From positions 62,001 through 126,000 of the IMG/VR virus record IMGVR_UViG_3300024336_000005: a stretch of 64,000 bases of DNA. One strand, written 5' to 3'. Shown piece after piece: positions 28,894 through 59,297 of the stretch. The DNA comes from a virus. Under the pieces are notes generated by a model. The model ran no database searches. It was not told where the DNA came from and was given only the letters and a program-made list of their open reading frames with translations. How positions within the stretch are numbered: position 1 is the stretch's first letter; each line of letters starts with the position of its first letter. The position numbers were made by a program, and so were the translations under genes.

Positions 28894-28985
28894 CAAGAAG
28901 TAAGCGTAAATGGTACTGCTACTGGCCTAAGGTCGAAAGACCTGAATCCGGTGTGTTGGAGGTTCGAATCCTCCCTTCTTGGCCA
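28894..28985 (+). tRNA. tRNA with enlarged anticodon loop, identity unassigned
   Basis: Acceptor CAAGAAG/CTTCTTG perfect, D stem AGC/GCT, T arm GGAGG/CCTCC, CCA encoded. ACTGG and CCGGT form an anticodon-like stem, but the loop is 22 nt and contains a GGTC-GAAA-GACC hairpin. Either a small insertion in the anticodon loop or a misread class-II arm. Confidence 0.6.
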
Positions 28986-34784: not shown

Positions 34785-36146
34785 ATGTACCAAGCAATTG
34801 TTGCCAACATTCACACCCGTCCACATCCGGGAGCTGATCGAATTCAGCTAGGAACTGTATGTGGCCATCAGGTTGTATGCGGGCTTGACATTGCTGATGG
34901 TACTCTCGGTGTGTTCTTTCCTTGCGATGGCCAGCTAAGTCATGACTTCTGTGTGGCCAATGATGAGTACCCTCGGCTTGATGAACAGGGGAAGAAGGTC
35001 GGTGGCGGATTCATCAATCCTAAGAACCGTCGCGTAAAGGCACAAAGCTTTCGTGGTGAAAAGTCGGATGGCTACTGGGTTCCAATGGATAAGCTCATTA
35101 AGTGGGCAAATCATGTTTGGCGCGAGGATGACAAGGGAGACCATGTCCTCTTGTCCAACCGTGTGCAGAGCCTTGTAGAAGGTGACACCTTTGATTCCGT
35201 TGGCGATGTGCCTTTGTGTAACAAGTATGTAACTGAGAAGACCCTTAAGGCTCTTCAGAATCAGGCCAAGCAGGCTCGCAAGACTCATACTCAGTTCGCT
35301 CAGCATATTGATACCAAGCAGTTCCGATACAACATTGGAAACATCCCGGAGGGTTCCATTGTATGGATATCTGAAAAGCTTCACGGTACTAGCGGTCGCT
35401 ATGGGTACGTTCAAGCTCTTCGTGAGCTCGGTGGCCGTTTTAATGCTTTTGTTCGCAGGGCTTTTGATTGGTGCGCTGATAAGCTTGGTCTTGATGTAAG
35501 CCCTAAGTATGAACATGTTATGGGCTCACGAAGGGTTGAGCTCTCTGCTCAGTCAGAAGGGTTTTACGGCTCGATAGATTTCCGTGCAAATGTAGCAAAC
35601 AAGTTGAAGGGAAATCTCCTCAAGGGTGAGTGCATTTATGGAGAGCTAGTGGGTTGGACTGGTCCTGATTCTTTGATCATGGGCCGCCACTCAACCAAGA
35701 AGCTCGGCAAGGAGCTTCGCAAGCAGTACGGAGAAGAGGTCACCTATACTTATGGACAGCCAAACGGTTGTTCTGAGTTCTTCGTTTATCGAATCACTCG
35801 TGTTGGCCCAGATGGTCAGACGATTGAGCTCGGTGAGCGTGAGATGCGGGCAAGGGCGAGGGTCCTCGGCTTCAAGACTCCAGAGCTCTTTGCGGGGCCG
35901 ATGGTAGTTCACGACTATGCTGATGATAAGTGGGTCGATGGTGGCAAGACGCTCATGCAGGTCGTGGAAGCCTACCTAAATGGACCATCGATTGAAGACT
36001 CACGACATCCTCGAGAGGGCGTCGTGATTAGGGTTGACAGGCCTGACGGGACTACCATCTGGCTCAAGGACAAGAACCATCCGTTCAAGGTAATGGAGGG
36101 TATCGCTAAGGATTCCGGCGAAGCAGACATGGAAGAAAGCTCATGA
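34785..36146 (+). CDS. Rnl5-like RNA ligase (453 aa)
   Basis: The N-terminal OB-like domain (1-150: GADRIQLGTV, VFFPCDGQLS) is followed by the nucleotidyltransferase core: motif I EKLHGTS with adenylated Lys198, motif IV EGVVIR near residue 405 and motif V WLKDKNHPFK near 425. The OB-then-ligase order matches the Deinococcus DraRnl/Rnl5 group, which seals RNA 3'-OH/5'-PO4 ends in nicked duplexes. With the PNK-like and 2H-like proteins it could form an RNA repair or tRNA-splicing pathway. Confidence 0.85.
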   Translation: MYQAIVANIHTRPHPGADRIQLGTVCGHQVVCGLDIADGTLGVFFPCDGQLSHDFCVANDEYPRLDEQGKKVGGGFINPKNRRVKAQSFRGEKSDGYWVPMDKLIKWANHVWREDDKGDHVLLSNRVQSLVEGDTFDSVGDVPLCNKYVTEKTLKALQNQAKQARKTHTQFAQHIDTKQFRYNIGNIPEGSIVWISEKLHGTSGRYGYVQALRELGGRFNAFVRRAFDWCADKLGLDVSPKYEHVMGSRRVELSAQSEGFYGSIDFRANVANKLKGNLLKGECIYGELVGWTGPDSLIMGRHSTKKLGKELRKQYGEEVTYTYGQPNGCSEFFVYRITRVGPDGQTIELGEREMRARARVLGFKTPELFAGPMVVHDYADDKWVDGGKTLMQVVEAYLNGPSIEDSRHPREGVVIRVDRPDGTTIWLKDKNHPFKVMEGIAKDSGEADMEESS

Positions 36147-40772: not shown

Positions 40773-42416
40773 ATGAACTACGGTAAGACTGTTAGCAACG
40801 CTATCAACAATGGTCCAGTTTCTCAGCCTATCATCGGTAGGCCCGAGATGGTAAAGAACAGCACTGAGGGCTTTGTCTTCAACACCACTTCTGAGGCAGC
40901 GCTTGAGCGCTTCCTCATTCTTGGCACTGAAGGCGGCACTTACTATGCCAGCGAGAGCCGAGCTACAGTTGATGCGGCAAAGAATGTCATCGAGATGGCT
41001 GTTGCTGGCAACGTAGATGTAGTCAGTACCATCATCAAGGTCGCTACTGCTCGTCCCTCTCGTGCGCCAAAGATGGAGCCTTCCTTGTTTGCTCTTGCAG
41101 TTTGTACCGCAAAGGGCACCCCCGAGGTAAAAGCTAAGGCGCTCAGCGCGCTGAGCGCGGTTTGCCGTATCCCCACTCATCTGTTTACCTTTCTTCAGGC
41201 CCACAAGGATCTGGGAGGCAAGACCGGTGGGCGCAGCTTCCAGCGAGCCCTACAGAATTGGTATCTTGAGAAGGATCCCTCTAAGCTGGCTTATCAGGTT
41301 GTGAAGTATCAGGGGAGGAATGGCTGGACTCACCGTGATGTTCTTCGGCTTGCCCGCCCTAAGGCTCAGACCCCTGAGCAGAACTCTATTTTGAGTTGGG
41401 CTGTGAATGGTTCGCTGCCTCTGGCAGTAAGTTCTGAAGCGGGTGCTTATCTTGTGGCGGCGAATGAGCTGCTGCGAGGGGAGCCGACGAAGCAGCGTGC
41501 AATCAACTTGATTGAGTCTCATGGGTTCACCCATGAGATGGTTCCGACTAAGCTTCAGAAGGACCCTGATATCTGGGCAGCTTTGCTTCCCCGCATGCCT
41601 ATCAATGCAATGGTTCGCAACCTTGGTCGGATGACTGCCAATGGTCTGATTGTTCCATTCAGTGCCACAACTCAGAGCGTGGTGGAGAAGCTTGAGAATG
41701 TGGATGCCCTTCGCAAGAGCCGCATCCATCCGCTCAACGTTTACGTGGCCTTGCGTACCTATCAGCAGGGCAAGGGCACTCGAGGTTCGTTGACTTGGCG
41801 TCCTGATGCTCAGATCTTGAGCGCACTAGAAGGAGCATTCTACAATGCTTTCGGGAATGTAGAACCGACTGGTAAGCGCTTCATGGTGGGCCTGGATGTA
41901 AGCGGCAGCATGGGTGGATTCTATGGCTACGGCTATAACAGTACTGTGAACCAGACTGGCCTTATGGGGATTCCTGGGTTTACGCCTTATGAGGCAGAAA
42001 CCCTTATGTCCCTTTTGGTTGCAAAGACTGAGAAGCAGACCTTCTTTGGTGGGTTTTCAGACAACTTCACTCCCCTTGCTATCAACTCCCGTGATAACAT
42101 GAGCTCGGCTCTTCAGAAGATCCGATCACTCCGCATGGGTTCCACTAGGATTGCTGCTCCGATGGAGTATGCCACCAAGAACAGGATTCCGGTGGATTGC
42201 TTCCAGATCTACACCGACAATGAAGTGAACATGGGCGGACATCCTTGTCAGACCCTTGAGAAGTATCGTCAGGCTACTGGCATCAATGCGGCCATGGTCG
42301 TATGCGCTATGACCTCTACGAATTTCACTGTGGCCGACCCGAAGGATCCGAAGCAGCTTGATGTTGTTGGATTTGACACGGCAGTGCCAGCTTTGATTCG
42401 ACAGCTTTTGGTGTAA
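40773..42416 (+). CDS. Ro60/Rsr RNA-binding protein, TROVE + vWFA (547 aa)
   Basis: The N-terminal two thirds is an all-helical TROVE-type domain; the C-terminal third is a von Willebrand A domain with MIDAS D375-x-S-x-S (DVSGSMG) and a later YTDNE. Ro60 proteins form a ring that holds misfolded RNA ends in its hole and Y RNA on its rim. In Deinococcus, Rsr helps 23S rRNA maturation and forms a Y-RNA/PNPase degradation machine. Phage Ro homologues have been described. A 23S-like RNA segment lies about 500 bp downstream. Confidence 0.88.
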   Translation: MNYGKTVSNAINNGPVSQPIIGRPEMVKNSTEGFVFNTTSEAALERFLILGTEGGTYYASESRATVDAAKNVIEMAVAGNVDVVSTIIKVATARPSRAPKMEPSLFALAVCTAKGTPEVKAKALSALSAVCRIPTHLFTFLQAHKDLGGKTGGRSFQRALQNWYLEKDPSKLAYQVVKYQGRNGWTHRDVLRLARPKAQTPEQNSILSWAVNGSLPLAVSSEAGAYLVAANELLRGEPTKQRAINLIESHGFTHEMVPTKLQKDPDIWAALLPRMPINAMVRNLGRMTANGLIVPFSATTQSVVEKLENVDALRKSRIHPLNVYVALRTYQQGKGTRGSLTWRPDAQILSALEGAFYNAFGNVEPTGKRFMVGLDVSGSMGGFYGYGYNSTVNQTGLMGIPGFTPYEAETLMSLLVAKTEKQTFFGGFSDNFTPLAINSRDNMSSALQKIRSLRMGSTRIAAPMEYATKNRIPVDCFQIYTDNEVNMGGHPCQTLEKYRQATGINAAMVVCAMTSTNFTVADPKDPKQLDVVGFDTAVPALIRQLLV

Positions 42417-50780: not shown

Positions 50781-50868
50781 CTAGCGAGCGGGCGGTGGAC
50801 GCCCAACCGTGCTGTACAGCGGTGGTGCTTTGATGCACAACTGGGTTCGATTCCTAGGCGCTAGACCA
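50781..50868 (+). tRNA. Class-II tRNA, Tyr(GTA)-like
   Basis: Acceptor CTAGCG/CGCTAG, D stem GGGC/GCCC, CTGTACA anticodon-loop candidate (stem imperfect), variable arm GTGC/GCAC, T arm CTGGG/CCTAG, CCA encoded. Identity tentative; a clear tRNA-Tyr lies at 47499. Confidence 0.65.
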
Positions 50869-52039: not shown

Positions 52040-52121
52040 TGCCCTTTGGCGGAATGGTAGACGCACGTAATGGTCCCCTCCGGCTTAGAGGGGTGCAGGT
52101 TCGACTCCTGTAAGGGTGCCA
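52040..52121 (+). tRNA. Class-II-like tRNA lacking a normal anticodon arm
   Basis: Acceptor TGCCCTT/AAGGGTG, Leu-like D arm (GCG...CGC), T arm GCAGG/CCTGT. Between them only 29 nt occur, dominated by a CCCCTC/GAGGGG hairpin; no loop with U33 and a readable anticodon is visible. Degenerate tRNA, or one processed in an unusual way. Confidence 0.5.
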
Positions 52122-59164: not shown

Positions 59165-59297
59165 TCTGGTGTCGCTTAATGGTAGAGCAGGCGGCTGTGG
59201 TTTATTGCAAGGGCATTACAAGGGTCTTAACCTTGGTAGGCCTCATAACCGCCCGGGGGAAACTCCATTGTAGGTTCGACTCCTACCACCAGAGCCA
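59165..59297 (+). tRNA. tRNA with 47-nt anticodon-loop insertion (Asn GTT or His GTG)
   Basis: Acceptor TCTGGTG/CACCAGA, G73, CCA, D and T arms canonical. The anticodon stem GGCGG (59190-59194) / CCGCC (59249-59253) is perfect but the loop holds 54 nt with a CAAGG/CCTTG hairpin. Removing 47 nt leaves CTGTTAA (Asn) or CTGTGAA (His), depending on the junction. U1-A72 and G73 favour Asn. Too short for a group I intron. Confidence 0.75.

Follow-up and report, generated by a model that had tools for sequence, protein, structure and literature searches.

The 64,000-nucleotide (nt) stretch of DNA analysed here (the window) comprises bases 62001-126000 of the 204,008-base virus record IMGVR_UViG_3300024336_000005, a phage, and contains on its forward strand a whole transfer RNA (tRNA) gene at positions 59165-59297, in which a 47-nt insert (59199-59245) splits the anticodon between U35 and U36. 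Inserts at this same site recur in tRNA-Asn, and at times tRNA-Lys, genes of other phages, and they form a covarying family. We conclude that the insert is very probably a removable intron. The explanation that we favour overall, with moderate confidence, is that a tRNA-like mini-intron is cut by tRNA-processing enzymes and that the gap is sealed by a phage ligase. The gene is divided as follows:

59165-59198 (+): 5' exon of tRNA-Asn(GUU), with acceptor, D-arm, stem GGCGG and C32 U33 G34 U35 (RF00005 and alignment to intron-free orthologues)
59199-59245 (+): probable 47-nt intron between U35 and U36, at a site shared with 34 viral contigs, phiM12 and Atu_ph07 and empty in L146-L148
59246-59297 (+): 3' exon, with U36 A37 A38, stem CCGCC, long variable arm, T-arm, acceptor, G73 and CCA (RF00005 and orthologue alignment)
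59254-59269 (+): extended variable arm, C-GGGG-GAAA-CTCC-ATT, resembling that of the L010/L030/L036/L058 tRNA-Asn class

The insertion in the anticodon loop, which an earlier note on this DNA had described, is confirmed by RF00005 (42.2 bits at 59165-59294 against a gathering threshold of 29, with 71 of 71 model positions covered and about 50 nt left unmodelled in the anticodon loop) and by ARAGORN, which overlooks the gene when run without intron search and, with it, reports 59165-59297 with a 47-nt intron under the label His(gtg). All four stems are paired (acceptor, 7 base pairs (bp); D-arm, 4 bp; anticodon, GGCGG/CCGCC; T-arm, 5 bp), CCA is encoded at the 3' end, and the anticodon arm reads GGCGG-CTGT-(47 nt)-TAA-CCGCC. 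The same note had called all other parts of the tRNA canonical, which does not hold for the variable region, a 16-nt segment with a GGGG-GAAA-CTCC hairpin that is unusual for Asn. It had also left the joined loop as either CTGTTAA or CTGTGAA, and three joining registers are indeed possible (GTT, GTG and GAT). Because the gene carries the Asn-like identity elements U1-A72 and G73, tRNA searches of the phage genome found no second tRNA-Asn(gtt), tRNA-His(gtg) is encoded separately at 43925, and intronless orthologues in related phages read CTGTTAA, we take GTT to be the correct register; the His(gtg) label was rejected on the reading of the empty-site orthologues. Judged from these features, the joined loop is CTGTTAA and the gene a tRNA-Asn(GUU), the isotype otherwise missing in the phage, whose recognised tRNAs cover every amino acid besides Asn, except Gly. 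The exons are 80% identical to those of L058 and 75% to those of L010, which have a long variable arm of the same kind; neighbourhood BLAST and protein-based searches found no close relatives of the phage, and an exact 30-mer of the interrupted gene had no match. Long hairpin variable arms are normally confined to Leu, Ser and Tyr tRNAs; besides that of the present tRNA-Asn, they occur in tRNA-His (window 43925-44012) and tRNA-Lys(ctt) (L002 3251-3338).

Same-site inserts are widespread among viruses: dozens of phages that are not related to one another have one, and close relatives do without. A pattern fixing just the anticodon arm and T-loop returned two more IMG/VR contigs with the same arrangement, both with GG after CTGT; BLAST recovered phiM12 and relatives as carriers; and a broader pattern gave 49 viral matches, 34 of which are whole tRNA-Asn genes interrupted by 35-51 nt. 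Applied to 257 gigabases of bacterial and archaeal genomes, the same broader pattern gave 58 matches, none of them a tRNA. The cultured carriers are phiM12, phiM7, phiM19 and Atu_ph07, and the distinct inserts number 20, counting those of phiM12 and the window; the host gene is tRNA-Asn or, at times, tRNA-Lys, and the site is always 35/36. CTGTGG and TAA were preselected by the search patterns for most members; among those found by BLAST or by family models (phiM12, Atu_ph07 and second copies), a GG start is frequent but not constant, Atu_ph07 having AA and the Lys-like copy of G003 having AG. A generic intron pattern free of tRNA context returned only tRNA-Asn genes and chance matches, and this subtype is thus not spread over other isotypes; other introns reported by ARAGORN in the relatives, some of them probably merged or misfolded tRNAs, were left out of the count. 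Family model R1 located second copies in the same phages, in tRNA-Lys as CTTT...TAA (G015; Lys-like in G008 and G003), in a second tRNA-Asn (G007) and in a possible Glu gene (G010). When exon sets were joined, all 28 tested read Asn(gtt) or Lys(ttt). The phiM12 copy had been deposited as a pseudo 'tRNA-OTHER'. The Agrobacterium phage Atu_ph07 has an interrupted tRNA-Asn (46 nt) and an interrupted tRNA-Lys (48 nt), with no annotated feature at the Asn place, and in its published tRNA set only Asn and Thr have no tRNA (PMC6102473). On the sequence evidence, its missing Asn gene is the interrupted one, and phage tRNA sets said to be without Asn are thus misread because annotation tools skip interrupted genes.

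The insert also has precise empty sites. L146-L148 carry tRNA-Asn genes of the L010/L030 class without it: with the 45-nt insert omitted, the L148 and L010 genes share 81 of their 88 aligned positions, nothing has been duplicated or lost, and relative to L148 the L010 insert lies exactly between CTGT and TAACC. Likewise, the gene of G015 and Atu_ph07 is present in OLIVR5 and IG49 without an intron. The insert is therefore a discrete unit at 35/36, and an ordinary tRNA-Asn remains without it.

The inserts share a fold. In a MAFFT alignment of 19 inserts plus anticodon arms, evaluated against 500 shuffles and slid registers, two helices covary strongly, a closing, acceptor-like stem of about 5-6 bp and, inside it, a hairpin of 4-5 bp whose loop has 7 nt: 91.1% of cells are paired (62.2% after shuffling), and covariation is 0.83 against 0.26 for shuffled alignments (0 of 500 as high) and at most 0.19 for slid registers. 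The result holds after the Lys introns are added. In most members the inner loop is a T-loop (TTCGATT, TTCAATT or TGCAAAT), the linker often contains AAAGG, and several members have a small D-arm-like hairpin (AGAG-TAAAGG-CTCT). Of the 21 members that could be parsed, 15, the window among them, have a distance of 12 between the T-loop and the nucleotide facing the first base of the insert; the Lys copies have 11, and in two others an alternative pairing brings it to 12. A distance of 12 corresponds, by our analysis, to the 7+5 bp geometry of tRNA. Rfam gave no match to the one family intron submitted in isolation. As read from the alignment, the inserts are a covarying family predicted to take the shape of a tRNA that lacks its anticodon arm, with an acceptor-like stem, a D-loop or D-arm, and a T-arm.

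The window insert follows the site rule of the family, interrupting a joined loop of the form CTNTTAA after U35 as CTGT-(47 nt)-TAA, and has site, length, GG start and orthologous exons in common with it. Because family models built without the window fail on its insert, we treat it as a divergent relative, placed by site and exon orthology, and not as a family member proven by profile. It may nevertheless adopt the tRNA-like fold, with the following predicted parts:

59199-59205 (+): GGTTTAT, 5' strand of an acceptor-like stem, pairing 7/7 (three G-U) with 59236-59242
59206-59218 (+): putative D-loop-like linker TGCAAGGGCATTA, its position and GG matching the AAAGG linkers of relatives
59219-59235 (+): T-arm-like hairpin CAAGG-GTCTTAA-CCTTG, present in the minimum-energy fold and lying where relatives have a covarying helix
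59236-59242 (+): GTAGGCC, 3' strand of the acceptor-like stem, pairing with 59199-59205
59243-59245 (+): 3' tail TCA preceding exon 2, from a reading of the sequence

Stacked on the hairpin, the seven pairs of GGTTTAT/GTAGGCC would make a 12-bp helix, for which the chance by shuffling at this register is 0.0015. The suggestion in the earlier note of a removable intron that does not splice itself, as opposed to damage, is well supported by the recurrence of the site, the covariation in relatives, the empty sites and the filling of a missing isotype; the protein-based cutting and ligation that it envisaged are putative. No group I or group II match was found. Neither the family of inserts, nor the small-tRNA look of its members, nor the published report of similar introns in Lak phages had been part of it.

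For a working tRNA to be made, the exons must be cleaved from the insert and ligated. In the route that we propose, the outer tRNA and the inner tRNA-like domain of the precursor would fold side by side, the inner domain would be handled as a pre-tRNA, and ribonuclease P (RNase P) would cut 12 bp from the T-loop, exactly between U35 and G1. The 3' end of the inner domain would then be freed by an endonuclease of RNase Z or RNase E type, from host or phage; the exon halves, bearing 3'-OH and 5'-phosphate, would be kept together by the outer tRNA fold; and the phage ATP-dependent RNA ligase would seal them to CUGUUAA. The tRNA-like shape, the U before the junction, the usual G after it and the 12-nt ruler, set against the known cleavage preferences of RNase P, suggest this enzyme as the 5' cutter, a step that we regard as quite possible, if short of probable. 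Cutting by RNase P and by RNase Z or E yields 3'-OH and 5'-phosphate. These are the ends that ATP-dependent ligases require (PMC7824862) and, with a ligase present and RtcB absent, they fit ATP-dependent ligation. Whether the parts amount to a distinct phage splicing system, in which nested tRNA-shaped introns in tRNA-Asn and tRNA-Lys would be removed by tRNA end-processing enzymes (RNase P first) and a phage ligase, with neither a splicing endonuclease nor a ribozyme intron, is a matter on which we are more tentative still. Two genes of the window encode candidate proteins:

34785-36146 (+): ATP-dependent RNA ligase of 453 amino acids with the nucleotidyl-transfer motif EKLHGTS (PF09414, E=3e-11; phrog_968, E=2e-47), the candidate exon ligase
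40773-42416 (+): Ro60/TROVE-vWA RNA-binding protein (PF05731, PF25045), a possible partner in RNA quality control

An ATP-dependent RNA ligase is encoded in 10 of the 11 intron-carrying records of at least 190 kilobases (kb), that of the window phage included. RtcB was found in none of the 23 records tested, nor in the window phage, and RtcB-based ligation was accordingly rejected for the carriers tested.

Several observations weigh against this reading. RNAfold favours a GGGC/GCCU pairing (-13.4 kcal/mol) over the tRNA-like fold (-10.0) in the window insert, giving the latter a probability of about 10-15%, and the window loop GTCTTAA is unlike a T-loop (TTCRANT or TGCRANN), as are those of L011 and L039 (GTCGGCA). 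With the window left out of training, model R2 scores the window at 17.9 bits (E=0.11), a score driven by the exons, and model R3 finds no match in the insert; the 31.9 bits given by R1 come from a model that had the window in its training set. The length of the 3' tail varies across the family (5 nt in most members, 1-3 in others), and we identified no 3' nuclease. Some phages (L010, L134) carry an intact Asn gene alongside the interrupted one. The contigs of 131-134 kb that bear the commonest intron yielded no ligase, nor did G010, and ligases occur in intronless relatives as well. RNA ligase presence was therefore rejected as an intron marker; because of these contigs and relatives, the ligase is compatible with splicing and not diagnostic of it.

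Among the alternatives, a dedicated phage or host endonuclease could read the exon-intron junctions in place of RNase P, with the phage ligase sealing the break and end-healing enzymes optional. The strict site after U35 in NUU anticodons would agree with this, the window and L019 inserts keep that site without a clear T-loop, and ligases are common in carriers; but no candidate enzyme was found, and the T-loop, GG linker and 12-nt ruler kept by most members would be left unexplained, and we consider this alternative rather unlikely. An alternative of about the same probability, which can hold together with the explanation that we favour, is a selfish nature of the inserts: they would be tRNA-like mobile elements with CTNTTAA anticodon loops as their targets, and would use tRNA processing only so as to remain harmless. 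Their presence is patchy, their empty sites are exact, and one phage (L030) has introns that are 98% identical in two tRNA-Asn genes whose exons are only 61% identical, a pair that gene conversion would account for as well; no mobility gene was shown to be tied to the intron, although an HNH gene adjoins the phiM12 copy.

That the RNA is never spliced, and serves as a pseudo-tRNA, an anticodon-nuclease decoy or a regulatory RNA retaining the insert, appears improbable. The deposition of the phiM12 copy as a pseudogene and the other odd tRNAs in several of these phages would agree with it, but the interrupted gene supplies the missing Asn isotype in two phages, and nearly identical exons without insert form an ordinary tRNA-Asn. 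The anticodon stem and loop halves, useless if unspliced, are moreover kept and covarying, an argument weakened because the search patterns favoured intact CTGT...TAA loops. Self-splicing by a reduced group I intron or an unknown small ribozyme is highly improbable. A terminal U on the 5' exon, as in group I, and the conserved structure of the inserts speak for it, but inserts of 35-51 nt are much too small for a group I core, Rfam gives no intron match, and the base that ends the intron is not always G.

The preferred reading, a tRNA-like mini-intron removed by processing enzymes and ligase, can be set beside known systems. The tRNAs of Lak phages contain introns that have been called enigmatic, one of which 'itself may encode a tRNA' (Devoto et al. 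2019, PMC6784885). In Lak-A1 (MK250015) and Lak-C1 (MK250029), these share with mini-introns a site in the anticodon loop and acceptor-, D-arm- and T-arm-like parts, but they are longer (about 87-114 nt by ARAGORN), lie probably at 36/37, and occur in Gly, Thr and one Asn-or-Tyr-like gene instead of Asn and Lys. At L142 2064-2223 and at L145 c7338-7524 and c15004-15168, a 5' hairpin is followed by (A)AAATTAAA and then by a tRNA-like domain with a 7-8 bp acceptor and a T-arm; compared by eye, this extra hairpin and AAATTAAA segment and the full-size tRNA-like domain set the Lak introns apart from mini-introns. The Lak-type 5' hairpin and AAATTAAA are not in the 47 nt of the window, and model R2 finds no match in Lak-A1. 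New relative to the Lak report is a non-ribozyme intron family of 35-51 nt at 35/36 with a covarying fold and empty sites; we found no description of such a family in tRNA-Asn and tRNA-Lys in the open-licence literature, an absence that is no proof.

Archaeal and eukaryotic tRNA introns are likewise short, lie in the anticodon loop, and are removed by protein enzymes. Their usual site is 37/38, in contrast to 35/36 in the window and its relatives; no RtcB was present in the carriers tested, and no bulge-helix-bulge appears at the junctions in the predicted folds, for which no dedicated scan was made. Group I introns in bacterial and phage tRNAs share the anticodon-loop site and a 5' exon ending in U, but have a ribozyme core of at least 200 nt, and the 47-nt window insert has no Intron_gpI match in Rfam. 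The tRNA-like domain of transfer-messenger RNA (tmRNA), which is processed by RNase P, consists of an acceptor stem, a stemless D-loop and a T-arm, with no anticodon arm; it resembles the shape of the mini-introns but is not inside another tRNA and carries a messenger part. The window itself has a one-piece tmRNA gene (23869-24490 (+), 622 nt, with a middle part of 340 nt against 104 in the model) that ARAGORN overlooks. In T4-type tRNA repair (Rnl1/Pnkp against PrrC), an ATP-dependent RNA ligase also seals a break in the anticodon loop (PMC7824862), but there a host nuclease inflicts the break as damage, whereas programmed excision is proposed for the mini-introns.

To our knowledge, bacterial tRNA introns are taught as self-splicing only. 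With orthologues that have and lack the intron, the mini-intron family opens protein-based tRNA splicing in bacterial cells to direct test, and cultured carriers are available in phiM12 on Sinorhizobium meliloti and Atu_ph07 on Agrobacterium. Mini-introns are a possible reason why many phages encode RNA ligases and, if the model is true, splicing would be a natural role of these enzymes besides repair; the unexplained introns of Lak phages might also be removed by such a mechanism.

Other unusual tRNA-like genes were seen in the window and in related phages. A gene at window 28894-28982 (+) scores 29.5 bits and has an anticodon stem, ACTGG/CCGGT, enclosing a loop of 22 nt that includes an AGGTC-GAAA-GACCT hairpin; a 7-nt loop with U33 cannot be recovered from it. 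The Tyr-like tRNA at 50781-50868 has 8 nt in its anticodon loop (tgta), and at 52040-52119 there is a degenerate tRNA-like gene in which no anticodon arm is clear. Close to their interrupted tRNA-Asn genes, L010 (4668-4747) and L030 (5496-5578, Gly-like) have tRNA genes with 15-nt anticodon loops. A tRNA at L133 3982-4117 has roughly 60 extra nt that may sit in the variable region instead of the anticodon loop, and one at L153 1501-1576 (phiM12), with anticodon TTA, is a possible ochre suppressor. Finally, a tRNA-Leu of the G015 phage (L132 8666-8787) has a different, 36-nt hairpin insert between CTA repeats in its anticodon loop, the removal of which could give Leu(TAA).
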